Of a DNA stretch of 64,000 nucleotides, positions 9,661 through 64,000 are shown one piece after another. Each line of letters begins with the position of its first letter. Positions within the stretch are counted from its first letter, which is position 1. The notes below the pieces were generated by a model that saw only the letters and a program-made list of their open reading frames with translations, was not told where the DNA came from and did not search any database. The position numbers and the translations under genes were made by a program. This DNA comes from Hydractinia symbiolongicarpus (taxonomy: Eukaryota; Cnidaria; Hydrozoa; Anthoathecata; Hydractiniidae), in the NCBI RefSeq assembly GCF_029227915.1, contig NC_079887.1:13888001-13952000 (forward strand). The letters are read 5' to 3'.

Positions 9661-9674
9661 CTTATAGACTATAG

Positions 9675-34000: not shown

Positions 34001-35071
34001 CACTTTTCGCTCGCGCATTTATCAAATCGTTTATATATCTTTATTTTACTTCATATAGAAACAATACTCAATATTATGGAGGTTACCATGCTGGCCATCA
34101 AACTATATCGTGGCTTTGGGACATATTGAACAATGACTTTAGTTTGGCTGAGAAAAAGCTTTTCTTAAAGGTACGTCTAACCATTTACCCCCTCTTTATC
34201 TACAAGACACCAGCCTCTCAAATCTAGCAAATGGCTCACTGGACTAGAAAAACAACCTAAAAAAAACTACTACTACTACTACTAATACTAGTAATACTAC
34301 TGCTAATTCTAATACTACTAATAATAAATGCATTTGTTTGGCTATTTCTATAAAGACAAACAACCTGAATGACGGGTTTTAATTCAAACTTCAGGTTCAT
34401 GAAACCACTTGTTAAATCGTTTATATATTTATGTTGTTCTTTAGTTCGTAACGAGTTGCTCGAATCCACCGCTGTTGGGATTCAAACATTTAGAGCCACA
34501 ATTTTCGATACGCTTCGTGGACTGCTCCGAGGATGAGGTAGAAATGACGTTCGTTATTTTTTGACGGAGATAAACCCTTATCTCCATTAATCGTATTCTA
34601 TAAGAACCAAATTTGACTTTCACTTTATGTTTTTGTTTATTTCTTAATTTAGAAATGTTATTGAATAATATTGAAATGTTTTTCTTGTCTCTTATACTTT
34701 ATTAGAAGAATTACCTTGGTTTCTTAACAAGTTCTTAAATTTTAGGTAATATCAAGGCCATATCGTGTTTTTATAAAACAATTCCCATAAAAAGAACTTA
34801 GCATAAATACCCAAACCAGCCTATTTAATTTTGCAATCCGGTTGGGTTTTCATTGCAATTTTATTTCTTTCAGGATGTTGGCGATTCAGTGGGCAGTGTT
34901 GTTCGTGGTCTGTTTAACGTTCGTAAACGCAATTCATCGTCAGTAGCTCGTTTGCCAACCGCCTCAACGTGTTTTAACTTGTTAAAACTTCCTAGTTACA
35001 AAAAGAAAACTATTTTGAGGGACAAATTAAAGTATGCTATCAAATCCGAGTCTGGGTTTGAGCTTTCGTAA
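11737..35071 (+). CDS. UBE3B: UBE3B, HECT-type E3 ubiquitin-protein ligase
   Basis: Coding exons: 11737-11856, 12247-12296, 12659-12711, 13845-13909, 14386-14445, 15989-16093, 16867-16914, 17452-17503, 18780-18865, 19685-19767, 20531-20639, 20753-20873, 22240-22274, 22525-22554, 22670-22782, 22970-23100, 23283-23441, 26961-27135, 27571-27686, 27779-27905, 28255-28354, 29241-29351, 30373-30450, 30613-30711, 30802-30918, 32044-32181, 32373-32438, 32791-32849, 33436-33618, 34059-34170, 34445-34537, 34874-35071. They sum to 3192 nt (1063 aa, close to the ~1068 of vertebrate UBE3B) with all phases consistent. An IQ motif ([17 protein letters not shown], ~residues 36-52) opens the protein; calmodulin binding there is family knowledge. 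The HECT domain runs from about residue 700, with the catalytic Cys in [13 protein letters not shown] at ~1031 and the C-terminus GFELS. HECT ligases take ubiquitin from an E2 onto that Cys and pass it to substrates. A second ATG at codon 4 (MYEMFG) could be the true start. Nothing is missing or broken. Confidence 0.96.
13427..13782. mobile_element. MITE family A, copy 1 (in UBE3B intron 3)
   Basis: A 356-bp element with inverted ends: TAGGCCTATCAATA at the left and TATTGATAGGCCTG at the right. It is closely similar along its whole length to 39095-39445. The CAGG-type ends hint at a hAT-like element, but no clean 8-bp target duplication is visible, so the superfamily is uncertain. The 63-codon minus ORF inside is part of the repeat and not a gene. 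Confidence 0.8.
15515..15810 (+). mobile_element. tRNA-derived SINE (in UBE3B intron 5)
   Basis: The head carries pol III-type promoter boxes: a box A-like GGTAGCCGTATTGTAGAG at 15521-15538 and a box B-like GGGTTTAAACCCC about 30 bp further on. A ~200-bp body follows. The end motif CCTGGAAAATAATACA is shared with the SINEs at 8818-9060 and 58340-58510. The tRNA-like part does not fold into a full cloverleaf, so this is a SINE and not a tRNA gene. Confidence 0.65.
17508..17812 (-). mobile_element. Retroposed element with 14-bp target duplication, beside UBE3B exon 8
   Basis: AAATTACTATATTT occurs at 17508-17521 and 17799-17812. Between them lies ~280 bp starting with a run of about 19 T. A poly-T at the left means a poly-A tailed element inserted in minus orientation. 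No protein is encoded; it may be a SINE or the 3' end of a LINE. The insertion begins only ~4 bp past the donor GT of UBE3B exon 8 (exon end 17503). Confidence 0.8.
18465..18507. mobile_element. MITE family A, end fragment
   Basis: About 43 bp resembling the right end of MITE family A, with TTGCATGCCCAAGAG and the terminal ACTGATAGGCCTAG. The rest of the element is not recognisable beside it. Confidence 0.5.
19285..19430 (-). repeat. Dispersed repeat family C, copy 1
   Basis: Contains ACTAGTCAGTGACTCGTGG at one end and a CAGACAGAC tract followed by TACGGGTATTAT at the other. In reverse, these match the two ends of 21920-22110. It lies in UBE3B intron 9 (between exons 9 and 10). Confidence 0.55.
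21920..22115 (+). repeat. Dispersed repeat family C, copy 2
   Basis: Begins with AATAATAGCCGTATTTTGTC and a (CTGT)n tract. It ends in GGGCGAACCCGTGGATTTTC and GGGCTAACAAGTAGTCTAT. A GCC(A/G)TATT start recurs at 22105 with a following AAAATGGCTGCAC, and again at 45920. No coding potential. It lies in UBE3B intron 12. Confidence 0.55.
23740..24204 (-). CDS. Unrecognised 154-residue ORF nested in UBE3B intron 17
   Basis: A single open frame from an ATG with A at -3 to a stop at 23740, antisense inside the 3.5-kb intron 17 of UBE3B. Composition is ordinary for a soluble protein, with no low-complexity runs. It is rich in charged residues and has Cys/Met-containing stretches such as [17 protein letters not shown] and [19 protein letters not shown] recognise no domain. 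A splice acceptor-like TCTTATTTTTAG lies 10 bp before the ATG on that strand, so an upstream exon is possible. It is much longer than other chance ORFs in this AT-rich window, which argues for real coding, but there is no homology support. It could also be an old retrocopy. Confidence 0.42.
   Translation of the reverse strand: MSINKQNQDGLKLSFKECFKSNKWQNAILFAVLKTHERIPHVEDANSNVIHDELESSRQQTNKIQCSNSMPMQRCDEHDTLTELVQQHCLENDIEQPSLVSMLYYIIHNKMIVRKNPTERRSAICEDSMLDRDIIYLILKKYRLEETLLKYSLE
25607..26608. repeat. Pair of ~70-bp direct repeats in UBE3B intron 17
   Basis: A segment at about 25607-25676 (AATATTAAATAAGTGATTCC ... GAAATTTGACATAA ... ATTACTGCTAATACAG) recurs at about 26541-26608 in the same orientation with scattered differences. 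The ~860 bp between them shows no other match. Both may be ends of one larger old insertion or two copies of a small repeat. Confidence 0.5.
27911..28085. repeat. (TTG)n microsatellite
   Basis: About 175 bp of TTG/GTT triplets with interruptions (TGTGAT units in the middle), starting a few bases after the donor of UBE3B exon 20 (exon end 27905). The poly-Leu/Cys reading frame across it is an artefact of the repeat. Confidence 0.92.
33085..33290 (-). repeat. Dispersed repeat family C, copy 3
   Basis: ACTAGTCGTTAACCCA and ACGGGTTCGCC near 33090-33132 match, in reverse, the right end of 21920-22115. The other end is degenerate. It lies in UBE3B intron 28. Confidence 0.45.
34261..34325. repeat. 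(ACT)n microsatellite
   Basis: Interrupted ACT/AAT triplets within UBE3B intron 30. No other feature. Confidence 0.8.
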
Positions 35072-41683: not shown

Positions 41684-44600
41684 ATGCCCCACCCGAAAGG
41701 GGGTCACAAAAACCCTGAATATGCCGGACTATTTTCCGATGCAGATCCAGAAAAAGTATTTCATGATTTACGAGAAATTGGCCATGGCAGCTTTGGTGCT
41801 GTGTTTTACGCAAGAAATGTTCAGAATGAGGCCGTTGCTATTAAAAAAATGTCATTTACAGGCAAAAACTCCACTGAGAAATGGCAGGATATAGTAAAAG
41901 AAGTACAATTTTTTATTGGACTTAAGCATGAAAACTGTGTTAGATATCATGCTTGCTATTTGAAAGATCATACAGCATGGGTAAGTTTGACTTAAGTTTA
42001 TTGTCCTTTGTGCAAATTGCATTTTTTTTCTATGAAGGTTGGATAAAAGTTTTGCTATTTGGTGTAGTGTTGACACTTTTTTATTTAGAAATTTCTCAGC
42101 ACTTATACTTTGCGAGGGCCAGTTTAGTTTATCAGACTGTGGAATATGCTGCTAGACATGTACCAGTCAAGCCAGCTTTGCACTGTACCAGTGTTACTGT
42201 CTCTGTTTTAAAAAAATGCAGTGAGAAACTCAAGTACATTAAGTGTGAATAAATTGCAGTTTTAATTTTGTTATGTTCCAGTACTTTTTTGATTAGCAAT
42301 TTGTGTTCATCGCAACTTGACGTGATATTAAATTTTTCAAATCAGTTGTATTTTTTATTTTGCAGAAGCTTATAAACTTTGTAATTTCGTTTTTAACATG
42401 ATATATTTTTAAGAAGTGAATAGAAATAGTCTGTTTTGTTGCAGCCATGCCACCACATAGATTTTTCTTTCTTTTTTCCAGCAGGTAGACAAATATTGCA
42501 TGGTTCAGTAAAGTTTAAATGTTGTATTCTATGTTAATATTTCAGCTTGTTATGGAGTACTGTCTTGGATCTGCTTCAGATATTTTAGAAGGTAAACATA
42601 ATTTTTTTGGATTTTTTAAGTAAATCATTTCAATGTGAGTAAAGTAAAACGGTCATTGTGGGATGCTTGAAATGGCATCACTCAAATAAGCTAAACCAAC
42701 AAACAGAAATGGTTATATCCTAGAAATGTTGTCAAGTGATAGGCTTGACAAAAATTATCCTTGTTTCTCGATAAAGCCAACTACAGCATAACTATCGTGT
42801 TTAACTACGTGCAATTAACAATTTGAGCAAAAGTGCAATATTGATTTGCTCTTTTTGTTACAATTTTTTAATAAGGTTTTTGTAAGCATATCTTTATTTG
42901 AAAATTTTATTATTATTATTTTATATTTTATAGTTCATAAGAAGTCACTTACTGAAAATGAATGTGCTGCTATTTGTCATGGAGCCTTATTTGGGCTGGC
43001 ACATTTACATAAAAATAACAGAATACATAGGGATATAAAAGGTATGATCTTGAACTTAACACATTACTGACTGTTAACTCTTTTTGCCTGTCCATGATGT
43101 TTTGTATCCTTTTTAACTTTCCTTAAAAAGCTTTTGTTTTCTGTAGGTGGCCAAAAGGTTAGGTTTTTTTAAAACACCTCAAAAATAGTTTGCACAATAT
43201 GTAAACCTTGTTATCCTTAAAGATATTTTTGAAGAAGACCTTAGTTTGTTGAAATTCTATCACATTCTTAATTTTTTTTTAGCTGGCAACATCTTGTTAT
43301 CTGAAAAAGGTGTCGTAAAACTAGGTGTGTATCTCATCCCTTGACTTGTTGTTGCATAATACTTTTTTCATAAAGGGTTATTTATGATTTTTACCATATT
43401 TTATTAGCTGATTTTGGTTCTGCTTCAATGAAAGCTCCAGCCAACTCGTTTGTTGGTACGCCATACTGGTAAGTGATATATTGTGCTCTGCTAAGATTAA
43501 GTCGTTGAGCCTAATTTGGGAATTTGTTTAAAGAAAATGTATCGTATTTTTTTTGTGTTTTTATTGATTTTGAATTATACTATTGATTTTGAATTAAATA
43601 CAGTGCCTCTGTGATTGTAAAACTTTCTTCCTTCCTCAAAATTCATATTTTAAAGTATACTGAAGCGTATAGTAACAACAAGTTGATCTTTTTTTATCTA
43701 CGTGATATTTTGGATGGATTTTATCTTTAGACTTTTTTATTTTCACAGGATGTCACCTGAAGTTATCCTTGCAATGGATGAAGGCCAATACGATGGAAAA
43801 GTAACACATTTTTTTGAGCGTAGTTATTTTTTAGTGTGCCAATTTGTATTTTTGTTTTTATTCCTGTCAGTTGGAGGAGACAGTCAAAATCCCCTTAAAT
43901 TAATTTTTTCTTTAATCACACACTTGTCATCATTTATCATCATTCTCGACTTAACGTCTGTTTTCCATGCTAGCATAGGTTGGACTCTGTATATTAATAA
44001 GCCTCTTACAATCAGATCTAAACTCAATTTCCTTTGCATCAAGTATGTTCTTATTAACTTCTCAGTCTACCTCTGGGCTTTGCCCTAGAAACTATTTCTA
44101 CGAAAAAAAAAATTGTTAGGGCCAACTACAAGTCTGCCTCCATATTTTTAAATATTTGATTTATAAAAATTGCATAAAAATGTTTACAAAAGTTCTCTTT
44201 TTGACAAAAAAAACATCTTTTACATTTTTGGGAAAATTTTAGCATTTATAGCATCAATGTTTTTACCTTTCAGGTTGATATTTGGTCAATGGGCATCACT
44301 TGTATTGAACTAGGTAACTCCCTTCGTTGTTATTGTCCAAAGCACACACATGGATTACAAGTAAAACTCAAATTTACGTTTATTATAGAAATTTAATAAA
44401 ATGTCATTTTTTTATCTATGTTTTTCATCACCAGTTTCATTTTTTAAAAAAAACACTTTTATTCAATAAAAGTTCTACGAACTTCAGGAAAGCTTAGTAT
44501 TTTAAAATAATAATTTAGTGTTGACTTTTTAACATAACGATTTGACTATAGTGTTTTTCAGATAGAATTGTTTTATGTAAACTTTCTCCTTCAACTTTGT

Positions 44601-47600
44601 TTGTGAATTAAAAACCTGCCAATCATAATCCTGCACGGTTATCTTTTTATTTTTCAGCGGAACGAAAACCACCATTATTTAATATGAATGCAATGAGTGC
44701 GTTATACCACATAGCTCAAAATGATCCTCCTAAGCTAACTGTGGGCAAGTGGTAAGTAATCAATCTTGAGATTATTTCATGCCATGTTACACGATTTAAT
44801 CTTATATAATAAATATATTTGGAGATTACATAAACCCTAGCTTTGATGAGAAGAGTGCAAATGTAAAAGACTTACTTTTTTATCTTTTTTTCTGGTTATA
44901 GGTCTTCAGAATTTAATGATTTTGTAGCAAAATGTCTAGCTAAATTACCAGGTGATCGACCGAGTGCTGATGAACTACTAAAGGTATATTCTTTATTTAC
45001 TTTACTTGCTTTATTTTCATTTTTTGCAACAGTTTTTTGCAAGTGGAAAATGGGTTTACTAAGGAGACTAAAAGAAACTATAAAGGTGTGCATTTTTTAA
45101 GCATGAGGTATGGAGATAAGTTTCCTTGCATGACTTTAAAATCACTGCTTGCATGGCTTCCATAGGAACTTTTTAGCACCTTTTCACAGGACGTTCATTT
45201 ATTGCACTGTATTGGCTCTCCGGACACACATAAAACACACATAAAAAAGATGGATGGATATTTTATTTTTTTCCTTGCAAGCTTGTTGTGTTTCTTGCCT
45301 ATTGAACCGTAATCTAAAAAATAAATTCGAACATTCTTTCTCCTTCAGGAACCATTCGTAACACGGCAAAGGCCAGCTAATACACTTTTTGAACTTATTG
45401 AAAGAACTAAAAAAGCAGTTAAAGCACTAGATAAAGCAAATTATAATCGTATGAAAATCATTATGGAAGATTCTGATGGACAAGAGGATGAGATGCCTAG
45501 TGCAAAGGCAGTTGGACATAATGGCTCTGTGACTGATGGAAAAACTCCTTTAGAAGAGGTAAGGTTTCTTGATTAACTGACGCTATCCTTTTTTCTTCAT
45601 CTCTGTATAAAGATTTAAAAAAGGTAATCAAAGGATTTTTTAAAGAAATTGTTACAACTTAAAAGTTCCTTGAAAGCAAATAATAAAGTTGCCAATTGAT
45701 AAATAATTTGCATCTGAGACGAGAGAAATGTTGGAATTAGTGTTTCAGCTTATTTAGATCTGTTAACTCATTAATTGTTTTTAGGATGTTAGGAAACTCA
45801 GTGTAACCAGCCATGGAAGCAGTGAAAGTGAATATGAGAAACCTGACTCGACGTCTGATCCAATCATTATAAGTAGAAGAGTAAAAGTAGTATGTGTCTA
45901 CCCTTATATATTTTTTTCTTATATTAATGCCTATATTTTGTCTGTTAAAAATGGCTGCACGAAGCTTTTTCCCTTCTCCTCCACAAGGTTAATAATTCGC
46001 TGCCAAGCCAAACCTGTCAACTAGTTTTTCTTTATTTGCTTCTGTGCTTTGTTCATTAATTCCCAACACTAACGTCTTGAAAGAACTGGCATTGCATTAA
46101 TTTTAAAATGGAACATTTAGCAACTAACTATTCACCCCTATGAGGTAATAAAGTTAGCAAAGGAAGGTTTTACAAGAGTTAAGTAGTAGTATTGACATGT
46201 CAATGATTTCTAGATTTCCCCAGATTTAATTTAGATATGGTAAATAAACATTTCGCTCAGTGAATTCATTGTATTTGGTAACCGTTCCATTTAGCCTGAT
46301 GTTGATGATAGGTTCGCTACTTTGCGTCCTGCTCAGATGGTTGCTAGGCAAATGCATGAGCATCAAGGCTCAGACGCATATCGAGAACAACTACAAGTTT
46401 ATAAAAGGTGTGTATTCTACTAGTACTGTTGGTGTTGTTGTTGTTGTTGTTGTTGTTTATAATTGTTGTTATTATTGCTGTTGTGGTTGGATAAATATGC
46501 AACTTATTACTATGCTATAAGTAAATAAAAAAAAATTCTTACCAAGGGAACGTAAGAGTCTCGCGTCTAAAATATTGTGAATTTTTAGTAGCGGTATGCT
46601 TAAGCTGTTCCCAGGCTTGCTCTGCATTTTGTTCTCAGGGACTGCATTAATTGTCGATACATTATTTATTATCAGGCTTCGTCAGCAGCATCAGAAATTG
46701 ATCATCCAGCTTGAACAGAAACAACAGCAAGAGATGTACGAACATAGAAAAGCCTTAGAAAGAGAATTCGAAAATCAAATGCACACGTTCGATAAAGAAA
46801 TGGAGAAGTTAAAAATGAAACACAAGCAAGAACTGGAACAGAAGGTTCGCTTTGTTTATGTTTTGTTTCTATGACTACTGTTACAATGACGTTCGACGCG
46901 CCTGCACTCCCGCTGTGTGTGTGGCCAGCAGGAAAAGCTTTCAAAGCAACAAAAATCTATAATATCAAAGGTTTTGCAAAAATCCTTCTACCATTTGTTT
47001 TTTTTTTACTTTTACTTCTACATACATGCACATGCAAACACTTCATGACATGAAACACAAAACAAACAGTCTTTTTTCAACTCGACTTGTATTTTCATTT
47101 TCCTTCTTGATGCTTTCATTTTAATGGTTAACATCCACCAAGCACAAACACACCATTCTGTTTTTTAACAACTTTCAACTAACCGCTTTTACTTTTTGTG
47201 GGGAATTGCTCGAGCGTGTTTTAATAACTTACCGAACAAATTATTTCCGCGAGTTTAGACAGCGATGCGCGATGCAAAAACGCTCACAGACAGCCCTTCG
47301 CCGAAAATTGCTGAGATCAGCATAAAAATATATAATGAAGTGTTTTAAAGAAAACTAAAAATTTAACCAATTGCTTAATAGTAATTTTAGACACCTATAG
47401 TGAATTGTGCATAGTACCATTAAAATTTAAAGCATCGACTTTGTGAGAATGACCACACTTTTCCCAAACTTTATGTAAGGAAAATACTTTTCCGACTTTC
47501 TTTGTGTCTGTCTGTCTGTTTGGACTAAACGAGGCAAGCTAACAAGGAAAGCCTTGAAATTTGAAAGAACCTTACTTGTGTAATCAAAACATTAAAATTA

Positions 47601-50217
47601 TGAGTCTTTAAATTCTGTATTATTATTTCGGCTAATGTTTATATCGATATGAAGTTTGGGAATTGTTTAGACCAACTCACAATTTTACATGCGTACACTA
47701 AAAAGACTTTACTTTATAACACGACTCCAACAGATAAAGTATAAATTGTCTAAACTATTTAAACAGTTAAAAAAGAAAACACTAAATTTTCATCAGGCAA
47801 AGCAAGGTATGGGCGACGAGAAAAAGTTGATACGTCAAATAAAAGAATGCCACGACGGCGAATTACGTCAAGTTACCAATCAAATGAAAAATGACTACAA
47901 GAGAGCCAAACAACAGTTAAAACAGGTAATTGTCATATTTTAAAAGAAGACTTCACTTTGTTTTTCAACATCATACTATAATGCACAGAAATACAAATAA
48001 ATTTTGACTAAATCCTATTTGGATTATTTTTTTAGCAGGAGGAGGTTAACAAAAGGAACTCAGTCACACCGTCCCAACTTAAAGAGCAGTACGCTCAACA
48101 CCAAAGAGCGGAGGAGGCTAGGAAGAATAATGAACATGTTGCTGCGATGGAGGAAGAGCTGCGAAGATACAGAAGGGATCAGTTAGGGCAACGTCAAACT
48201 CTAGAGAGACAATTACTCATTGAAGTAAGTTTGGTTGTTTTATTTTAGTAAGAGACGTAGTGTTTCGTAATTAAGTATGCTTTAAAAAAAGCCCCATGAA
48301 ATATGCTACAGCTATGAACAATCTCTGCCTTAAAACTGCTTTGACATTTACTTCAACGCCTCTTGTATAAAAAGGTCATTTTAGAAAATAAGTATTCAGT
48401 GGTGACGGAAGACCTTGACCACAAAATTGAATCCTCACGAAATTTTAGAACAGAGTTCCTTAACTTTATGTTGCGTCCTAACCTAGCAAAGCTATTTCTG
48501 TCTTCTCGTTAAAATATCTATAATTAACGTAGTAATTTTTAAGGCTTCAATGGGTGTTAAAAACAAACTGGCTTAGACTCGTATATTTCGTACCTAAGAA
48601 ATAGTATTAAGGCCAACTTTGACTGTATATTTTCGTGCTAAGAAGTATTTCTGAGGCTACATTTGTCTGTATGTTTACCTAAAAATAGTATAAAGGATTA
48701 CTTTGACTTAATGCTTGGCTACATAGGGAATAGTATAAAGGCTAACTTTTATTATATGCATACCTAGAAAATAATATAAAGGCTAACTTTGTCTCTATGC
48801 TTCTCTAGGAAATGAACACATTGCAATCTCAGAAGGATCAAGCTCATCAAATGTTATCACGTCATCATCAGTGTACGCAGGAGCTTGAGTACAAGCAATT
48901 GAATAGTATGCATCGACTACGTAAAGAACAACAATCTAATCTCCATGAAACTGAGAGAGACAATCAATCAGAGTATAACAAGAAAGCAGAAATGGAATTG
49001 CAAAAGAAACACCTGTTGGAGATTAGACAAAGACCAAAAACACTCAAGGTTCGTGGTAACCGTATCAGGAAATTCTAGTTATGTCACTTTAATCCTGTTT
49101 ATACCCCTTTTTGGCATAAACGCATACGTTAGATTGGTATAGACCTTCGTGTAGACTTTTAACTTCTAGGTGCATGATCTATACGGTTACGTAATTCACA
49201 AGTAAATTTTATTTAGGCTCAGGAACTTAAAGTGAAGAAGCAGTTTAACGAGACGTGCAAAGTACAAGAACGACAATATAAAATGCTGCGTAAGCAGATG
49301 CTTGCAAATGCACCACGCGAGCAACACCGCGAAATAATGCAGAAGTTTAAGGAAGACCGTACCAGAAAGTTTGCTGAGCTGAGTTTACAATACGATCAGA
49401 GTATAAACGACCTGCTACAGAAGCAAAAGGTATTATTTACAGTTATGAAAATGGAAAGGTGTTTTTCATTTGTTTTTCGTTTTATTAACGTTTTGTACCT
49501 TCAACTAGGTTCGTCTTGATGAGCTTCAGTTGCAAGAACTTGAAGCATTACGCATTCAGTTGCAAGAAGAACAAACGGTGTTGGATACTTATCAAGCCAA
49601 ACAATCTGCTCATTTGAGAGCTCACATTGACAAAGAGTTGAAAGATCTTCAAGATAGGGTGGCGTTACGAAAAGCACTGTTAGAAGAGAGGGTATGGTTT
49701 CGTCAGTTTATTTCTCTGCATTATGCTGATTGGTTTAAATTGTGTCACTGATATGTACTTCTATTTTTTGCAGATGTTTGAAGAAAGCACCCGTCTACAA
49801 GACATTCGTTTGGAACGCTTAAAGGAGATGCAAAATCGTCACCAAATAGAACTAGCAGAATTCGACACAATATCTCGTCGCCACTTGGAGAGCCCGCGAT
49901 CGAGTCGGTCGAGCTTTACCAGTGTGGGGAGTAGTCCTCGAATTAGTCGAGCTTTTAATCAGGGTAGCTCTCGGGACAGTAACAGGTCTTTGGGAACGCC
50001 GGGCACACGTTTTGCTCAGCCAAGTCGAGCTAGTTCCGTGAGCATGACCAGTCTCCAGTCTAGCGGCAGCTCGAATCGCAGTGGTGATATGACGCAGTAT
50101 AATAGTCAACTACAGCCAGCACACAGCGTTAGCAATGTCACCAGCACGCGCTCAAGAAACGACAATCGCAATGGAAATATCGAAAGATTATCGTATTATG
50201 AGTCAAATCGAAGATGA
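41684..50217 (+). CDS. TAO kinase (STE20-family Ser/Thr kinase), isoform with C-terminal cassette A
   Basis: Exons: 41684-41980, 42546-42591, 42934-43041, 43283-43324, 43408-43468, 43749-43800, 44274-44313, 44658-44751, 44902-44983, 45349-45558, 45785-45889, 46295-46407, 46676-46844, 47797-47925, 48039-48224, 48809-49048, 49217-49429, 49509-49691, 49774-50217 (TGA). Total 2814 nt, 937 aa, all junctions in phase; vertebrate TAOKs are ~900-1230. Kinase domain ~25-280: Gly loop [16 protein letters not shown] Lys54, HRD at 146-148, DFG at 166-168, GTPYW and [14 protein letters not shown]. The usual APE is SPE here. A linker, then [14 protein letters not shown] and long coiled coils follow, and the tail is Ser/Arg-rich. 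Family role: TAO kinases activate MKK3/6-p38 and Hippo (MST/Hpo) signalling and act on the cytoskeleton. One ancestral-type gene is likely, so TAOK1/2/3 cannot be assigned. An acceptor at 41600-41601 suggests a 5' non-coding exon. A second copy of the last six exons follows downstream. Confidence 0.95.
47797..50217 (+). CDS. TAO kinase C-terminal cassette A (six exons)
   Basis: Exons of 129, 186, 240, 213, 183 and 444 nt, every boundary in phase 0. They encode the distal coiled coil ([76 protein letters not shown]) and a Ser-rich tail ending in YYESNRR. The acceptor of the 186-nt exon is of NAGNAG type (TTTAGCAG), so one Gln could be added. Cassette B at 52416-56561 matches it exon for exon. 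Confidence 0.93.
48560..48808. repeat. Intronic ~45-bp tandem repeats leading into the 240-nt exon, cassette A
   Basis: Units of the form AATAGTATAAAGGCTAACTT followed by a pyrimidine-rich TATGCTTACCTAG recur about five times with drift. The last unit is the true acceptor TATGCTTCTCTAG of the exon at 48809. The same array, shorter, precedes the matching exon of cassette B. Confidence 0.75.
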
Positions 50218-52415
50218 GACCGTGCGACAACGTGTGTGGGTAATCACCCACCTGATTAACAGGTGAAGAACACGTGTCAATCACGTCTATATATCAATGC
50301 ATGTATTATCGCCTTTGGATCAATACGTGATCATGAAGTCTATACCGGTGATGATTTTGGTGATAGTTTCAAGGCGTTTCTAGTTAATATTTAAAATGCA
50401 ATATTTAGATATCGTAGAATTTTAAATCCACATTTGACATATCTCAATCCTCAATGGAACAAACTTTATCGTCATTTACCTTGCTGTCCTTTATCTTTGT
50501 TTACAAAATTTTCTCGCCTCGATTGCTAACACTTCATGTTCCGTCATTTTAATGTTCTCACATAACTCGTACATGAAAGTCGTGGAAAGTTTTCATAGGG
50601 AATATCCTTTTCAGATTATATGGAAAGAGTATTTTTTTATCATCGTTTTATTTCTTAAAAAGAAAAAAGAAACTCCTAATAAATCGAAAACAGTTAATAC
50701 ATTTTTCCGCTCAGGCGGAATTTTAACGCCCAGTCATGTACTTTTAACGCCCAGTCATGTACTTTTATAATAGTTCAAAGACCAGTGCTCATAAAAATGG
50801 CCATGGCACTTTTTTGGTATGTACATATATTTCTTAAATTGTTTTCTGTACCCATGTGCTGAAATAAAGAATTTCGCAAATAATATACGCAGTGTGTCTT
50901 TCGTGTTGTATTTACGTGAAGTATTGTTGCATAGCGACGCCCTCGCGCATTTCATGAGTTGTACATCCAACGATTCAAGAATGGAAATACGAATGAAAGG
51001 GAAGTTGCTTTCAAAATAGCGAATGAGCGAATTCATAAATAGCGAGTGAGCGAGCTTATTAATGTTTATTAAAATTATTAATAATTACGTTAATTAATCA
51101 ATAATCAAATTTCCTATCAATAATAACCCTAAAAATAACAATAAATGATTAGGCTTCATCGACTTCCATAATCTTAATTAAATTTATTAGTCTGTAACCT
51201 GTTGATTATATATCGCATTTTGTGTATCCGTAACATAATTACAAAATCGAGACAGTGACAGACAACTGGTATTAGAGATTGCAATATCGCTTATAATTTC
51301 GTCCATGGTAATTTTCGAATTTCCGCTTGCGGGCAAGTCAATTTAATGTTTCCATTGACGGCTTTTCAACAAATTTAAAAATAGCTATGCCACATGCTAC
51401 GTTAGTGGCCAATGTTGGAACACAACAGTCCTGATAATTTTTTTTAATTTTAGCGCATTAAATTTCGCTAACTTAGCGCAAATTTGCGAAATTTTTGTGC
51501 TCGAGAAATGTTTTTTTTTTTTTAAAACATTTTTAAAAATTAAAGCGAAATATTAGAGTTCTAGAAGTAATTTTTTTTATTATTATATTATTATATATTA
51601 TTATTTTTATTATTTATTTTCTCCTTAAATAACACAGTATTTTTGAGGTTTGTGGTGTAATAGCATTTGTCAAATTATTCAACTTTCTTGAAATATCTAG
51701 CATTAATTTACTCAGGCAGCCAATGTCCGCGAAAATCCAACTATCGATTCGCAAAAATCATTACTCGCGACGCTTTTTGAGACACGCGAAATAAAATATT
51801 AAATATTTTGTCTGCTTTTATAAAATATATGCAAAGAAATGTGACGATATTTTTGTTTTTAACTCGTTCGAGGTCTGACTATATTAAAAATAGGTAAAGT
51901 AACACAGCAAAAAACTTCATTCGTCAAAAAAAACTCGGTAAAAATGCTTCTTCATTTAAAAAAAAGATAGTTAAATGTTTGTTCGTCTTTTTACTATATT
52001 GTTATTTAAAACTTCAATAAGAACATTCTTCAGGGTGTCCCCACTCCGTCAAAAATGTCAAGAATTTTGAAAGTAAGCAAAATATCAGGGATATGTTTTT
52101 ATGAAATGTCAGGAAAAGGTTAGGAATTTTAGGTTTAGTTGGTAAATCAACTATCTTTAGTTTGCAAAATATTGACAAGGGATTAAACTTAGGAATTGTT
52201 TTAAAAAAAATAGCATTATTTTTCAACAAATCTGTTACATCAATATGTTTGTTATTTAAATTTATATTTTTAAGGTAATTCAAGGTTCTTGTAGTATGAA
52301 ATTCCCTAAATGTCAAAAGTGTCAGAAATCTCAGGAAAATGAAGATTTGATATTGAGTGGACACTCTGTTCTTGTGCGTAACTATTGGTAACCGTGTTTT
52401 ATCTCTTTTACCCAG
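50218..52415. other. 3' UTR of cassette A and spacer to cassette B
   Basis: AATAAA at 50863-50868 is a good polyadenylation signal for cassette A. The surrounding ~90 bp (GGTATGTACATATATTTCTT ... GTGCTGAAATAAAGAATTTCG) resembles 57590-57665 after cassette B. A short direct repeat (TTTTAACGCCCAGTCATGTAC, twice) is at about 50722-50763. From ~51300 the spacer has several CGCGAA-type motifs. The 162-codon minus ORF at 52014-52502 overlaps cassette B's first exon antisense and is probably chance. Confidence 0.6.
50863..50868 (+). terminator. Polyadenylation signal for TAO kinase cassette A
   Basis: Consensus AATAAA 646 bp after the cassette A stop codon, in a stretch homologous to the 3' UTR end of cassette B. 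Confidence 0.6.
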
Positions 52416-55400
52416 GTTAAGCAAGGCATGGCGGATGAGAAAAGGTTGATCAAAAAAATCAAAGATGATCAAGACGGCGAGCTTCGTCAACTTTCTGTTC
52501 AAGTTAAAACTGACTTCAAAAAAGCAAAACTACAACTCAAACAGGTAACTTGCTATGATTTGTTTTTATTTTGTTGCCACGTCCTAAAAGCACTGAACAT
52601 TTCAAAGAATGTTAGGTAGATAGTCTCAGAGCTTTTGCCGCCATCATGCATTTATCTGTTAAATTAATGCGCCTTTACTGTCCATGCTTTTAGACGAAAA
52701 AATTTTCTCACATGCTATGATATATAGGGTTCAGTGTATCATCGCGTAATTACTCTCGCGGAAAATATACAAAAAAAACATAATGGCACAAAAATCGTCT
52801 ATTGTAAAGACTCATAAAAATTTATTTTGATATTTTTGTGAAAAGTGTGGACTTGTTAATAACGTAATGGAGCAATGTTATATGTGCGAAGGGTATAATC
52901 TCATTCTCAGGGTTTTTTGTCTTTTTTTGACACTGGGCGACGTCCAAACGTCGACAAGTTTCAATATGCCCTGGGAACGAGGTTGGCGTAGGCTAGTGGA
53001 TTCTTTTGTTGAAAGCATGTTGCCTTTATCACTACTTTACATACTATCATAAAAAATTAATTTTGATTACTTCTTCTGATACAACCTTTTCGGCCCTAAG
53101 TTTGAGAAAGTGACAAAAATTTAGCCCAATAAAAAATCAGATCAGATTTCTAAAATGTCGATTCAGTTAAAATGCCACAAAAAAATCACCATCTTTAGAG
53201 GGGATGATTTAAGTTGGGTTTTTTTATTATACGGAATAGATTTCTAACAAACTTGTGTTTAGAACATATCTCTCTGACATTATGCAGCAATGCAAACGTT
53301 ATTGCCATCCCGATTTCAGAAGAGATTAAGATGCCCTGGGAACTAGTTTGGGTTCCTAGCAAGATTCAAAATGTTGGCATACTTTGAACTAACTTCCAAT
53401 TTTTTATTTTAATAGATACCTGACTTCAGCGCTTTTAGGTTTTGAACAATTAAAATTTGTGACCCCAAAGTAAAAAAAAATTCAGGTTACGAAAATTAGA
53501 ATCGACGAAAGTTTAAGCCCATTAGGTATGTTCCATCGTTTTTAATAGGACGAAGTGAACAAACGCGCGTCTGTGACATCATCACAGTTAAAAGAACAAT
53601 TTTTGCAACATCAACGCGATCAAGAGACGAGAAAGTACAATGAACATGTAGCTGAGATGGAAGAAAACCTCAGAACTTACCGAAGAAAACATCTTTGTCA
53701 AAGTCGTGCGTTGGAAAAGCAATTGCTAATGGAGGTATCAGTAGCCATCTTTGTTGTATTTACATATTTGTTTATTCTCTTCGAAGAAATATATTAATAA
53801 GAAAATCAGACCAGTAAAGAAGGCTGTGTAGAGAAAATGAAATGATCTGCTTAGTATACTTGACTGTTCCTCTCTTTCTCGTAAAGAGATCTTGTCTTCG
53901 TACATTCAGTCCAGTCATTCTATCTTTCTTAATTTTTTAACCTTCCATACATAAACAGGTGTAGAAACAAATGTACGTAAGATAACAAGGAAATTCATCG
54001 TGTAAATTCGTTCAGAAAAAAGAACCAGCCCACGAAATTATAGGCAGCTTATTTTCATTTTGCTTAATTTTTGGGATTGCTTGCAAGGATTTCGGTGTTA
54101 AGAAACTGTTCTGAAATATGGCTTATTTAATCACTTTTTTAAGTTGGATATAGTATAAAGGCTAACTTAACTTTATGCTTACCTAGGAAATAGTATAAAG
54201 TCTAACTTTGACTCCATGCTTAGCTTACCTATGAAATATTATAAAGGCTAACTTTGTCTCTATGCTTCTCTAGGAAATGAATACATTGCAATCTCAGAAG
54301 GATCAGGCTCATCAAATGTTATCACGTCATCATCAGTGTACGCAGGAGCTTGAGTACAAGCAATTGAATAGTATGCATCGACTACGTAAAGAACAACAAT
54401 CTAATCTCCATGAAACTGAGAGAGACAATCAATCAGAGTATAACAAGAAAGCAGAAATGGAGCTGCAGAAGAAGCATTTGCTGGAACTGCGACAAAGACC
54501 AAAAACACTCAAGGTTCGGTGCTATACGTTGTTACCTTAGGTTTTCAGTTTTAAAAAGAAGACCCGTTGCTGTTGTATGCATATAAGGATAGTTTTTCTC
54601 GCTATAACAATATCCTGTTAGCATGATCTCTAATCTCTCCTCAGGTAGATGTCTAACTAAACAAGTAGTAGTAACGTGTCATTTAGCTACCCCTTGACAT
54701 CCTTACCAACTCTCTTCTTTTAATGCGACCTGCAGGCTTGGACAGAGACCGATTCGGTTAGACTTAAAAACAATAAAACTACAAGAAATAATTTTTTCTA
54801 GGCACAAGAACTTAAGGTGAAGAAACAATTTAACGAGACGTGCAAGATACAAGAACGACAATATAAAATGCTGCGCAAGCAGATGTTGGCGAAAGCTCCG
54901 CGTGAACAACATCGCGAAATTATACAAAAATTCAAAGAAGATCGCATGAGAAAGTTTGCCGATCTTGGTTCACAATACGACCAAAGTATAAACGACTTGC
55001 TACAGAAACAAAAGGTAATATTGAAGATAGAAATTCTTGCGCGGATTTATTTTTGCGAATTTATGCTTTCTTTCTCCCCACACTTTTTCTTTTTTAAGAA
55101 TATTAGGCTAAAATCTTAGGTTAGCCATTTGATATTCTTATAAAAATTACCGTGTATTGTTTTTTTTTGACAATTTCTCGCTTGTTTTTTTTTTCGCGAT
55201 TATTTTTTTTACGTGAACTTTTTATAGATAGGACGTAAAAGTTCATTAAAACTTCGCTCCCTTACGTCCATGGTATGCTAACGCCCGTCCCGTTTAGTTA
55301 CCATAGTCCTAGGGACGAGGTTGATTGTTTGCTAACCACATAGTAATGAAAAAACTTTGATTTATTTTTTTATAAATCTTGCGACTTTTCCAAATTTTGA

Positions 55401-56561
55401 TTTTCAAGTTTTTATTGTTGATAACATAACATTGGACTGATACTTATTTCTCGTACCTTCAAACAGGTTCGTCTTGATGAGCTTCAGTTGCAAGAACTTG
55501 AAGCATTACGCATTCAGTTGCAAGAAGAACAAACAGTGTTGGATACTTATCAAGCCAAACAATCTGCTCACTTAAATTCTCACATTGACAAAGAGTTGAA
55601 AGATCTACAAGATCGAGTTGAATTGAGGAAAAAACTTTTAGAAGAGAGGGTATGCTTTCTTTCGTCAACTTCGTGTGCTCAAGTCTAAATGAGGCTGTAC
55701 AAGATTTTATAAGAAACTGGAGACTTTAGTTTTAGAGCTTGTAGTTCGTGATTTTTTTAAGGAATTGGACAAGACAAGTGAAGTAAATTCATTGATCGGC
55801 ATGCTTTCTAATGGAAATTGTGATCGCTTGATGTTCTTTAGTTAACAAGTTTTTGTTGATTAAACCTAAGCTATAAATTCTCCCCCTGTTTTCGTCAGTT
55901 AAATAAAAATTCCACTCTACGATTGTTGTGCATCATTTACCAGTTAATCCGATTGGCACAATCAACACATGTGGTTTGTACAGCATATCCAATTTACTGA
56001 TTCGCATCCAAATTTTCATAAAACCCTCTTCAGAGCAAGCACTTGAATTATTGAAATTTTTTTGATTCATTGGATTTTCATCTTCTCATTATTTAGTTTT
56101 TTTTTTTTTATTAGATGTTTGAAGAGAGCACGCGGCTTCAAGACATTCGATTGGAAAGACTCAAAGAAATGCAAAATCGACATCAATTCGAACTCGAGGA
56201 TTTTGATTCCTCATCACGGAGACATATCGATAATCTTCGCGCGGGTCGTTCTGCAAGTAGCTTCAGCGGCAGCACGAGTCCACGTTTTAGCCGAGCATTC
56301 AATCAAGGTAGTCCACGACTCAGTAATAGATCGCTAGGTAGTCCGGCTAGTCGAAACCCGCAGTCTAATCGTAACAGTTTTATCAGCATGTCTAATCTTC
56401 AATCCGCAACCAATAATTCTACGCGCGAAAGTTTAGCATCGCAATTTAGTAACGGCCCGTTACAACCGGCGCATAGCGCGAGCAATGTAACAAGAACTAG
56501 AAGTAACGAGAGTCGAAACGGTAACGCTCGCTTATCGTATCACGAAGGTAGTCGAAAATAG
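52416..56561 (+). CDS. TAO kinase C-terminal cassette B: duplicated, intact alternative six-exon 3' end
   Basis: Exons: 52416-52544 (129), 53549-53734 (186), 54274-54513 (240), 54802-55014 (213), 55467-55649 (183), 56115-56561 (447, TAG). Lengths and phase-0 borders equal those of cassette A except three extra bases in the last exon. All are open with good splice sites. The protein parallels cassette A ([59 protein letters not shown]; tail ending LSYHEGSRK) but the tail and first two exons differ clearly. No kinase exon, start codon context or promoter is seen upstream, so it most likely joins exon 13 (ending 46844, phase 0) as an alternative 3' end; the splice would skip 5.6 kb. Alternatives: a separate short gene from a cryptic promoter, or a silent duplicate. 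Purifying selection is suggested by open frames and mostly conservative changes. Confidence 0.88.
52896..52984. mobile_element. MITE family B-like inverted repeat
   Basis: Left AATCTCATTCTCAGGG (degenerate), right GCCCTGGGAACGAGGTT. It lies in the first intron of cassette B. The short 61-codon ORF across it is repeat sequence. Confidence 0.5.
54150..54273. repeat. Intronic ~45-bp tandem repeats leading into the 240-nt exon, cassette B
   Basis: Units ATAGTATAAAGGCTAACTT / TATGCTTACCTAGGAAAT recur about three times, the last being the true acceptor TATGCTTCTCTAG before 54274. Homologous to the array at 48560-48808. Confidence 0.72.
55250..55323. mobile_element. MITE family B-like fragment
   Basis: Right end CCTAGGGACGAGGTT as in the family B copies. 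The left end is weak. It lies in a cassette B intron. Confidence 0.35.
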
Positions 56562-57654
56562 CTATTTTCACCGAATCAGTATTGTTACTACACTAAAGAA
56601 TGTCGTAACTAGCGATAATAATTATCGAAAAAAATTCACTATGTGCAGTAGCTTTTATTTTTTTTTAAATATGGCGGAAGTATATCAAGGGAATAAAAAA
56701 AGTGCGGGAAGAAAAAAGCGAGAAAAAATTAGTAACGATTGCTCCTTAAAATTAATGCGAAAGTATTTAAAAATTGTGGGATTCATTCATTTGTATGATC
56801 TTCTGTTTTCATGGGATATTTATTTTAAAAAGGGATTTAAATCATACCTTATACAAGTCACATTGTTTTTAAAAATGAAACTTTATTTTTTAGTTAGTGC
56901 TACCTGGTCCATTTTTGGCGGAGTACTAGAAAATCCTTAAAGCTTGTTTGAAATTGACTGGTAAAATTTTTTTTGCAATAGAATAAGTTCTAATTTTATT
57001 ATTCCGCGCTCTTTACGCGCATTTTTATTATTCCTTTCGGTAGCGTTTTCCGGTAACATGTACCTGTAACGTTTTCAGCTTGTTTGTGGCGCAATAAATA
57101 ATTTTTCTATTCTAAGTTACAAAAACATGATTCATGAACTCTAGAAGCTCCAAAGAGGTGACGTTTCAAACAAAAAATTAATTTCACTGCGAAGTCTTCA
57201 TTTTATCTCATTTATTCATTGATTCTCGGAACCTCAAAATCCTATCACAAATGTTAATCGCTCTCTCTCCATCAAAAGCTTGAACTTTTTAGTGTGATAA
57301 AGAGTGTCTTATTATATTTCTGTCTGTTTAAGTTTCCCCCGTATTGATAGATGTTTTTTTTTCGTTTTTGCCAATCTAAGAAAACTTTTAAATTTTATTT
57401 CAGTTTTATCACTAAATATGACAACCACGTCCCCAGGGCTTTTTAACGTGAAAATGGTTTATCTTTTCTCTTCATTGCGTTTTAACTTTTTGTAATAAAA
57501 CAGTTATGATTACTCTTACAACTTAGTGCACAGGCCCATTTTGTATGTAACTATATATTAGGGTCAAGTACAATGTAGTATTATTTTGGTATGTATATAT
57601 GTTTCTTAATTTTTTTTGTTTGTTATATACCATGCGCTGAAATCAAAATTTCGC

Positions 57655-57660
57655 AATAAA
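57655..57660 (+). terminator. Polyadenylation signal for TAO kinase cassette B
   Basis: AATAAA about 1.1 kb after the cassette B stop. The flanking GGTATGTATATATGTTTCTT and GCGCTGAAATCAAAATTTCG match the cassette A 3' UTR end, so the duplication included the 3' UTR. Confidence 0.6.
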
Positions 57661-58339
57661 ATTTTATTTTTTAGTATAATTGTTGTATTAATGATAATAT
57701 TTTTCCACATACATAGAAAATAAGATGCGTCTAATTCTCTTACTACAGCCATTTTATGCGAATCCGTCAATTAAAATCCCTCGATGATTTCAAAAATCTA
57801 TCTGCGAAACGTTTATTCTCGAGTACAGCGATGTTAAAGGATATGTAACATTCTCACCTCGGGTGTTTTAATCTCATTATGCCGGCGACGAGAGTTGAAA
57901 CAGACTTTGCCGGTCGGATTGAGTTAACCCTTGGGCTAAGTTCTTTTTCGGAAAACTCAATACACCAAGATATTACAACAAATTCTTGGCGACACGACGT
58001 CGCAATCTAAGACAGGAATTCGGTGCGACTGGGAAGGAAGTTTTTATTCTTCTTTATTGTAACAGTTAAAAAACAGTTGATGGAAATCACACGTAAAATC
58101 GCACCTAATAAGTTGTTTAATCTCGCATGAACATTGGCAAGTTCAAAAAGTGAATCTAAGATACAAACCTATGCGATGTGATGCACAGGTATATTTCGTG
58201 AGATTTTTAAAAATCAAGTCATTTCTAAGAAATCTTAGAAAAATATTTGTGATACTTTGGGTTGATCTTAAAGATTTTCGAACAAATTAGGTAGAAGAAG
58301 AACTGATAATTAGCCAGTAACAGAATAGTTAGCTGTTTT
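57661..58339. other. Intergenic stretch without recognised features
   Basis: No coding exon or repeat family I can name on either strand. Confidence 0.4.
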
Positions 58340-61877: not shown

Positions 61878-62743
61878 TTAAAAATCATTTTGCGTGTGTA
61901 ACGGCACACCATTAAATAACACTTGAAATGAAAGAGTTTTCGCTGAACGACACATTTCTGAATCCTTGCCCCCTGCTTGATTGCCAATCAAATCTAACAT
62001 TTCGCATATCGGTAGAGACGACTTTCGTGTGCCGTAAAGTTTTCGTTGCGGAGTCTCGTCATCCAACACGACAGATTTCCTACGTTCTAGTTTTGGTCTT
62101 TGTTCAGAGTTTGATCTATGACGGAAATCAGTTGTCTCCGACGTTCTTCGTTCTATATCAGCAGAGTCCCCGCGGTGTAACTGCGTCCTACGCCGCTCCA
62201 AATCTGACGGACGGCGCTCTCCGTCACAAGATCTTCTTTTCGGTCCAGGCGAAGATTCAGATATCGTGCCGAGGGCATTGCTTTCACATTCAACGTCTTC
62301 TAAAACTACCCTTTCAAATTGTTCACCTTTCCGCGTACATTTCAAGTCGGCTGCCGGTTGCACAGCAGGCTGTTGGTTTTCTACTTCGAGCAAAGAATTA
62401 GCTTCGTCTAAAGATTGTTGAAGTTCAGTGTTTTTCAGCTTATAGGAAGAAATTTGGTCTTTCAATAAACAAACCTCTTCTGCTAGCTTATTTACGTCTA
62501 GTTCTTCGTTCATTTCCGAAATATCCTCAATCGAGGTTGCTCGGCGCATTGGAAAATCACGAGGTGAACGCATCGAGCTCGAGTGGGATCGTTTATAGCT
62601 CTCGCTGTTCGCGTTGTAACTCGATTGTGTCGGCGTCGATGATGAACGTCCCAGAGGTAAGCGTGGTGTACCATCTTGTCGCTCTTCATCACCTCCCTCC
62701 TCCTTCGATAAATTCGAAGTATGGAAAGTAGACAATTGAGCTT
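61878..62743 (-). CDS. Unrecognised protein with coiled coil and RRxS-rich tail, last exon (partial)
   Basis: A terminal exon of ~288 codons on the minus strand ending in TAA at 61880-61878. A splice acceptor (TCTTTCTCGATTTAAAG) borders it at 62743-62744 and an in-frame stop lies just upstream, so the protein starts in exons further right. The N-terminal third of the exon is Ser/Arg-rich (PLGRSSSTPTQSSYN, MRRATSIEDISEMN). A coiled coil follows (KLAEEVCLLKDQISSYKLKN). The second half has many basophilic kinase-type sites: KRRS, ERRPS, ERRRT, ERRTS, ERRKS. The C-terminus is FQVLFNGVPLHTQNDF. I do not recognise the family. It is likely an intracellular scaffold or adaptor. Phosphorylation by PKA/AGC kinases and 14-3-3 binding are inference from the motifs. 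Confidence 0.68.
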
Positions 62744-64000
62744 CTTTAAATCGAGAAAGAAACAAAAGTTTAGCTTACCCTACAGTATCAAAACATTCGA
62801 TTAGTTTCGATTAGTTCCGAACGATAACCGACAACCATCGATATACGACGACGACAGGACGACGACATGAGGTTAAAATTAATCTGTGACAAGCTAGGTT
62901 GTTATGGCAGCTAATTGCCCCTCAACATAGCTTGTCCGAAAAAATACGTAAAGTTGTGTTTACACTGTGGGAGTAGATTCACTGTACGTATATTATAGAA
63001 TTCTAATTTTTATTCCGTGCAAAAAACGCTTCACTGTCGCGTCCAAGCATAAACTCAACTTTAACGTAGGGACAAGTGAGTGATTGTTTTTTGAAATTAT
63101 TGAGTAAAGGTAAAAATAGTAATCACTCACATTCCCTTTGTGACGTCAAGTGTGAAATACAAATGAACACGTATAAAAAGTAAACGTCAAAAAAAACGAA
63201 AAGTCCACTTTAATCGCACACGATGACACAACCGGCACTAAAACGCGTATTTGATTTTAGGTAAAACCTGAGTTGATATCTCGTAACAACAAGGTCAGTT
63301 TTACTAAGAATTGAGAAGTACTTAGCATCGTCCCTTGCCAATCGTTGTGTTGAGAGATAAAGTGGACTTAAAAATCTTAACTTCGGCTTCATCTTAAAGC
63401 TTGTTTTCCACTTCACGGATGTGTTTGTGTAACAAGTATCCTTTCGTCCGGCGCGTTCCAAATATTTGTGTTCTAAATGCCCCGGACGGAGAAATACTTT
63501 TTACGAGAAACTCTTGTTGTATTATTTCAATACAACAAGAAATGTTTTATTCTTTAATAGCCAATCAGATATCTTTTTTTTTTAAAGCACGTGTCACAAC
63601 TTTTTTGATACAGAACATTTTTGCCTATAAGGAAAAAGCTTTTACCCAGCTCACGAAGAAATTTATCTCAAAATAATCAGTATAATTTTGGAAACACACA
63701 CATTCTGCGGAAACAATTTCCATGAAGTTGAGAAACTCAGGCGTGATGAAGATATCTCCACTATACAAGTCTTTCAAAAAAAATAGTAGCCTGTTTTAGC
63801 ACTAACCGTAGAGATAAAGATAATTTTTTTCTTCCATCAGTGTCGTCCTGCAAACAAGTCTCACGGAGGTCAAATCTTACTCAATGTACAATATCCCGTC
63901 AGCGGTAATGATTACATTAACAGTAAAAATGAAGGTGAAATGTTTAACAGCATGCTCAGTATAAATAAAAAAATTCACAAGTGCAAGTGCGTTGGTGCTA
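62744..64000. other. Right end of window, no gene supported
   Basis: Should contain an intron, or the 5' part, of the gene at 61878-62743. The only suggestive piece is 63837-63900 on the plus strand: a CTTCCATCAG acceptor, 64 open bases and a GTAATG donor. It has no recognised family. The ORFs at 63210-63461 (minus) and 63401-63676 (plus) overlap each other and look like chance. Confidence 0.35.

Follow-up and report, generated by a model that had tools for sequence, protein, structure and literature searches.

A TAO kinase gene of Hydractinia symbiolongicarpus with tandem-duplicated last six exons, which may be processed into two kinases with different tails

Can one kinase gene carry two complete, alternative C-terminal halves? 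This question is raised by a locus of the hydrozoan Hydractinia symbiolongicarpus, in a 64-kb stretch of DNA (contig NC_079887.1, positions 13,888,001 to 13,952,000; GC content, 32.6%). This whole stretch is called the window here, and its own numbering is used throughout. A gene for a TAO (thousand-and-one) STE20-type kinase lies on its forward strand. Judging from the DNA, it is quite likely that this is a single gene whose last six exons and 3′ untranslated region (UTR) end were duplicated in tandem, and that it is processed into two kinases with different tails. An earlier sequence-only reading had described two six-exon cassettes, here blocks A and B, and its coordinates, exon lengths, splice sites, open frames and phase-0 borders proved right.

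41684..46844, forward strand: shared exons 1-13 of the TAO kinase gene (13 exons, GT-AG introns, a single open frame)
46676..46844, forward strand: exon 13, the last shared exon, ending in phase 0 (donor GTTCGC)
46845..47796, forward strand: intron 13 to block A, 952 nt
47797..50217, forward strand: block A, exons 14A-19A of 129/186/240/213/183/444 nt, stop codon TGA (47797-47925, 48039-48224, 48809-49048, 49217-49429, 49509-49691, 49774-50217)
52416..56561, forward strand: block B, exons 14B-19B of 129/186/240/213/183/447 nt, stop codon TAG (52416-52544, 53549-53734, 54274-54513, 54802-55014, 55467-55649, 56115-56561)

The N-terminal kinase domain identifies the gene as a TAO kinase. Exons 1-13 encode 470 amino acids including the complete kinase domain (Pkinase, PF00069; residues 26-278, E 5.7e-60). 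When exon 1 was compared with the chains of the Protein Data Bank (PDB), the top match was TAO2 (1u5q, E 1.3e-36), and the best non-TAO chain reached E 4.3e-07. After the kinase domain, the 470-residue core appears, by homology and by eye, to consist of a serine-rich linker and then the start of a coiled coil. The products predicted for the core joined to A or to B are co-linear with ten aligned relatives (P0001-P0010) along their length, the coiled-coil C-terminal half included.

What exactly was duplicated? When both products were compared with the window by tblastn, exons 1-13 were found once, as the sequence-only reading had it, and exons 14-19 twice. The product ending in A matched all six exons of block B (E 1.1e-10 to 4.6e-43), which is not due to chance. 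That reading had also held that a kinase domain belonging to B itself would overturn it; none was found in the window. Neither a third block, nor a second TAO kinase domain, nor a relic of exon 13 near B was detected by tblastn in the 64 kb, where the best match elsewhere had an E value of 1.6. At the nucleotide level (blastn), homology between A and B runs from 10 nt upstream of exon 14 to near the presumed end of the 3′ UTR, while the introns are largely unalignable.

50812..50886, forward strand: presumed end of the A 3′ UTR, AATAAA at 50863, matched by blastn to its B counterpart
57584..57662, forward strand: presumed end of the B 3′ UTR, AATAAA at 57655, matched by blastn to its A counterpart
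50887..52415, forward strand: spacer from the presumed A poly(A) site to exon 14B, without a copy of exon 13 or the kinase (tblastn)

The two presumed 3′ UTRs are homologous over their final ~80 nt (76.5% over 81 columns, E 7.7e-10), and their AATAAA motifs fall at different aligned positions. AATAAA and ATTAAA are common here, the sequence being A+T-rich (11 in the spacer between A and B), and the 3′ ends given for A and B are presumptive. The duplicated unit was the 3′ end of the gene, probably including its poly(A) region. The locus has the arrangement of a gene with alternative tandem 3′ exon blocks: upstream exons present once, followed on the same strand by homologous blocks in compatible phase. 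A 21-nt unit is repeated in 2.2 copies without mismatch in the presumed A 3′ UTR (50721-50767).

Could both blocks be joined to the kinase? AG acceptors are present in all 12 A and B exons and GT donors in all 10 non-terminal ones, and every frame is open with phase-0 borders. Exon 13 also ends in phase 0 and can be joined to either block, as had been proposed: core plus A gives 934 and core plus B gives 935 amino acids, with no internal stop in either translation. The five coiled-coil exons (14-18) show no length difference between A and B. It had also been claimed that A and B exons could be mixed freely. Since all borders are in phase 0, a switch from A to B at any exon indeed stays in frame. 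However, ordinary cis-splicing runs downstream only; therefore a transcript may switch from A to B but never from B to A, and the claim was overstated. By arithmetic from the exon order, the possible full-length forms are pure A and six forms ending in 19B. Alternative splice sites that keep the frame lie close to several A and B exons; at 15A, for instance, the acceptor is a NAGNAG that could also give an exon of 189 nt.

Is block B maintained, or is it a decaying 3′ duplicate without a product, unexpressed or a pseudogene? Nucleotide identity between A and B is 71% in exon 14, 64% in exon 15, 95% in exon 16, 83% in exon 17, 90% in exon 18, and 62% in exon 19. The synonymous divergence (dS) is 1.46 for exon 14, 0.33 for exon 16, 2.28 for exon 17, and 0.41 for exon 18; for exons 15 and 19 it was not computable (returned as -1) and was taken as saturated. 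The sequence-only reading had suggested the ratio of nonsynonymous divergence (dN) to dS as a check, and over exons 14-18 a dN of 0.095 stands against a dS of 1.07. Differences at codon positions 1/2/3 number 40/23/108 in these exons, and 4/2/30 in exon 17 alone. When neutral drift of B was simulated, the mean number of premature stops was 5.3, 9.7 and 16.0 at 84, 168 and 336 substitutions, and stop-free copies made up 0.4% of 2000 at 84 substitutions and 0/2000 at both 168 and 336. The real block B has no stops and no frame-breaking indels.

Relative rates tell a similar story. In Tajima-type tests on exons 14, 15, 17 and 19 with five outgroups, A and B did not differ significantly (p 0.16-1.0); the A-unique/B-unique changes were 25/37 with P0001 (p 0.16) and 21/29, 19/29, 26/23 and 20/21 with the other four (p 0.19-1.0). 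Four of the 20 single-exon comparisons lean toward a faster B at p 0.06-0.09, none below 0.05, which would suit decay and weighs against the use of B: exon 19 with P0001 (10/21) and P0003 (7/17), exon 14 with P0005 (1/7), and exon 15 with P0004 (3/10). Exon 17 leans the opposite way, toward a faster A, with all five outgroups, again not significantly. Decay is opposed by 1398 nt of open frame, the full set of splice sites, the low dN/dS, the third-position excess, the similar rates, and the intact frame. Gene conversion, described below, could preserve exons 16 and 18 in a dead copy; yet exons 14, 15, 17 and 19, which lie almost wholly outside the clearest tracts, are constrained too. The dN/dS, the codon positions, the stop simulation and the relative rates together indicate that both blocks are held as protein by selection, and a decaying duplicate seems very unlikely.

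Gene conversion has acted between the blocks, on parts of the coiled coil.

48775..48996, forward strand: conversion tract in A, 34 nt at the 3′ end of intron 15 plus 188 nt at the start of exon 16
54240..54461, forward strand: partner conversion tract in B
49509..49612, forward strand: second conversion tract, 104 nt at the start of exon 18A (partner in B, 55467-55570)
48599..48802, forward strand: intronic array of a ~41-46 nt unit just ahead of exon 16A (counterpart ahead of 16B, 54146-54278)

Exon 16 of A and B differs at 2 positions in its first 188 nt and at 11 in the remaining 52 nt, and the preceding 34 intron nucleotides are identical. Exon 18 has 1 mismatch in its first 104 nt versus 17 in the remaining 79 nt. 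Of the 261 codons that specify the same amino acid in both blocks, up to 48 in a row are identical at silent sites, a length reached in 0/100000 permutations; another such run, of 24 codons, is found where exons 17 and 18 meet. This pattern indicates that most of exon 16 and the 5′ portion of exon 18 have been made alike again by gene conversion, whereas exons 14, 15 and 19 have stayed different. Because of gene conversion, the dS of the whole block underestimates the age of the duplication. Upstream of the converted stretch of intron 15, the A/B alignment decays within the repeat array. A 23-mer from the array has seven matches at up to 3 mismatches, all within the two arrays, where none would be expected by chance. 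By eye, the ends of some repeat units resemble the exon-16 acceptor (CTAG/GAAAT).

The same data bear on whether the two blocks are an artefact of assembly, with two haplotypes or a misplaced paralogue set in tandem. Exons 14, 15 and 19 are only 71/64/62% identical, some silent sites are saturated and the introns are largely unalignable, far beyond ordinary allelic divergence, and an allelic assembly duplicate is ruled out. The conversion tracts imply two copies exchanging sequence within one genome. A misplaced piece of an unlinked paralogue is still compatible with the sequence alone. An assembly artefact, which the sequence-only reading would have taken as refutation, is extremely improbable. 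The locus is real and selected, and block B is probably used.

How would block B be used? In the favoured reading, exon 13 would be spliced to 14A in a transcript ending at the A poly(A) site; alternatively, after read-through of that site, block A would be skipped and exon 13 spliced to 14B in a transcript ending at the B poly(A) site. The isoforms would share the catalytic domain and the coiled-coil start, and would differ mainly in exons 14, 15 and 19, that is, in one segment of the coiled coil and in the Ser/Arg-rich tail; gene conversion keeps most of exon 16 and the beginning of exon 18 alike. The claim of one locus making two kinases holds as far as one kinase domain and two intact, selected, in-frame blocks; the 13-to-14B splice, a regulated choice of poly(A) site, and a tail-specific partner or location are predictions. 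Since only exons 14-19 were duplicated, the closest coding exons detected upstream of B on its strand are those of block A and exons 1-13 of this gene. A splice from exon 13 over A is the simplest use of B, with which two features agree in a weak but consistent way. On a small matrix made from the same gene, the acceptor of 14B reaches a score of 10.7 and that of 14A one of 7.7. The first Met of 14B is codon 5, and codons 1-4 ahead of it read VKQG, as in P0006-P0009.

Besides the single-exon leans given above, several points weigh against this reading. The exon-13 donor has the fourth lowest score among the 23 donors of the gene, level with 16B, although by plain consensus count it is unexceptional (6/9 matches, where the 23 donors span 5 to 8). 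Each block has its own AATAAA. A crude test for long-range RNA pairing between intron 13 and positions 51300-52415 gave -221.4 against -247.8 for shuffles (sd 8.8, n=30), weaker than chance. Among the 10 aligned relatives, obtained by scoring only the 7985 and 7986 candidates with the most shared words, no two have a common kinase and tails as different as those expected from A and B. In Hydra, moreover, downstream cistrons are made by spliced-leader trans-splicing (PMC3273482).

This last point suggests another use of block B, as an independent downstream unit, in which a spliced leader on 14B or a local promoter would lead to a coiled-coil protein that lacks the kinase and starts at the Met of codon 5. 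Spliced leaders are described on at least a third of Hydra genes (PMC7986045), and the downstream gene of a Hydra operon is described as receiving one (PMC3273482). The high-scoring acceptor of 14B and the position of its first Met, after just 4 codons, would suit such a unit. On the other hand, the same Met is found in A and in P0001-P0004 and is probably inherited rather than a novelty of B, and the VKQG ahead of it is shared with four relatives. Two points of little weight run the same way: a kinase-less query of 461 amino acids found no relative at E up to 0.001 among 5113 candidates scored, and the genes of the operon described are <417 nt apart (PMC3273482), whereas ~1.5 kb separates the presumed A poly(A) site from 14B. 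I regard an independent unit as unlikely. The 14B acceptor might instead be contested: joined in cis to exon 13 it would give a second full kinase, and joined in trans to a spliced leader it would give the kinase-less protein; this is decidedly improbable. If it were true, the duplicated 3′ block would yield an alternative kinase and its possible dominant-negative partner, and the choice would be made by competition between cis- and trans-splicing after read-through of the A poly(A) site.

When did the duplication occur? In protein searches with the B and A halves, the best word-sharing candidates (7985 and 7986, respectively) were scored and 14 proteins were obtained with each half, 17 relatives in total; P0001-P0010 were aligned and P0011-P0017 left out of the alignment. 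A search of the PDB with the cassette-B protein gave no relative at E 0.001. Two Hydra vulgaris TAO3 entries (P0005 and P0010) are among the relatives; P0008 has a different N-terminus, and in P0006-P0009 the sequence ends earlier than in the products of the window. P0002 was excluded from the trees, its tail being identical to that of P0001; an insertion in the linker that follows its kinase domain makes it 147 residues longer, and it is probably a splice variant from another animal. When only the non-converted exons are used, A and B group as sisters (support, 87 in one tree and 89/94 in another). Exons 16 and 18 give a support of 97 and all six exons one of 99, and conversion favours both values. 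Trees that group P0001 with A (p-AU 0.041) or with B (p-AU 0.053) are disfavoured by a narrow margin only. The split from P0001 probably came first, with the duplication of the tail block soon after it, and this duplication is probably lineage-specific. P0005 and P0010 are each other's sisters (support 100) and have different kinase domains. A common origin with this Hydra pair was rejected, as pairing A with P0005 or B with P0010 gave p-AU values of 1.2e-5 and 1.1e-9. The trees indicate that Hydra diversified its TAO kinases through another duplication. The Hydra proteins resemble the products of the window in being two hydrozoan TAO kinases with divergent C-termini, yet they are complete proteins with their own kinase domains.

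Is such an architecture new? The sequence-only reading had set a whole six-exon 3′ block with its own UTR apart from the common mutually exclusive single exons, as something not known for TAO kinases; the rarity it implied was overstated. According to the sources cited here, unc-60, GNAO1 and pip all have alternative 3′ blocks of several exons, and the splicing architecture is not new. In Caenorhabditis elegans unc-60, which encodes the ADF/cofilins UNC-60A and UNC-60B, the first exon series is described as skipped whole and the shared exon joined to the second (PMC3469465), as proposed here. The two unc-60 products have a single exon in common and the skipped exons are 2A to 5A, whereas the gene described here has 13 common exons, with a full kinase domain among them, and six that alternate. 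The intron before the first series of unc-60 is described as retained until the second has been transcribed, through proteins on CUAAC and UGUGUG motifs (PMC3469465). In my model, a switch of this kind might also operate here. The unc-60 regulators are ASD-2 and SUP-12, with their CUAAC/UGUGUG sites (PMC3469465); counterparts at the TAO kinase locus would be hypothetical. A (TG)4+ tract at 46914 in intron 13 is the only one within 46000-58000; as an unc-60-like signal it was rejected as a resemblance only, since (TG)4+/(CA)4+ tracts occur six times in the window.

Exons 7.1-8.1 and 7.2-8.2 of vertebrate GNAO1 are likewise described as a local duplication of final exons with mutually exclusive splicing (PMC5896119), although two exons rather than six are involved, in a vertebrate G protein. 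Drosophila pip has tandem homologous clusters of terminal exons, as here, but eight of them and in a sulfotransferase, and its source treats them under UTR duplications (PMC9013439). Among human tandem duplicated exon events, 77 of 236 are reported to swap C-terminal regions (PMC9741552). C-terminal splice isoforms are already described for a TAO kinase, TAOK2 alpha and beta; the available text on them does not state duplicated homologous blocks as their source. In the top-ranked open-licence literature, duplicated 3′ blocks were not found reported for any TAO kinase. Nothing related came up there on TAO kinases of cnidarians or on duplicated exons in Clytia and Hydractinia, and nothing at all on terminal exons duplicated in tandem.

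Other features were noticed elsewhere in the window. An exon-like open reading frame (ORF) at 33889-34227, upstream on the strand of the TAO kinase gene, matches HECT ubiquitin ligases (PF00632, E 5.7e-7). An ORF at 2-1012 has a pectinacetylesterase match in its 3′ part (residues 241-317; PF03283, E 1e-7); this family includes Notum in animals. The stretch 9668-9979 holds a reverse-transcriptase fragment (RVT_1, E 2.9e-6, score under the curated cut-off), likely a relic of a retroelement. On the reverse strand, 61878-62774 is a stop-to-stop frame of 298 amino acids, Ser/Arg/Glu-rich by eye, with no Pfam match at E 0.01.

What would the duplicated tail mean for the kinase? The C-terminal half of mammalian TAOK2 is described as binding microtubules and actin (PMC7589832). 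If block B is used, a single kinase domain would be coupled to two tails that differ in this C-terminal half. The locus would then be a natural experiment, in which exon 16 is mostly and exon 18 partly kept alike while exons 14, 15 and 19 diverge, a pattern that may point to where isoform-specific function lies. Two routes to TAO kinase diversity are suggested in hydrozoans: duplication of the tail only in Hydractinia, and two complete proteins in Hydra.
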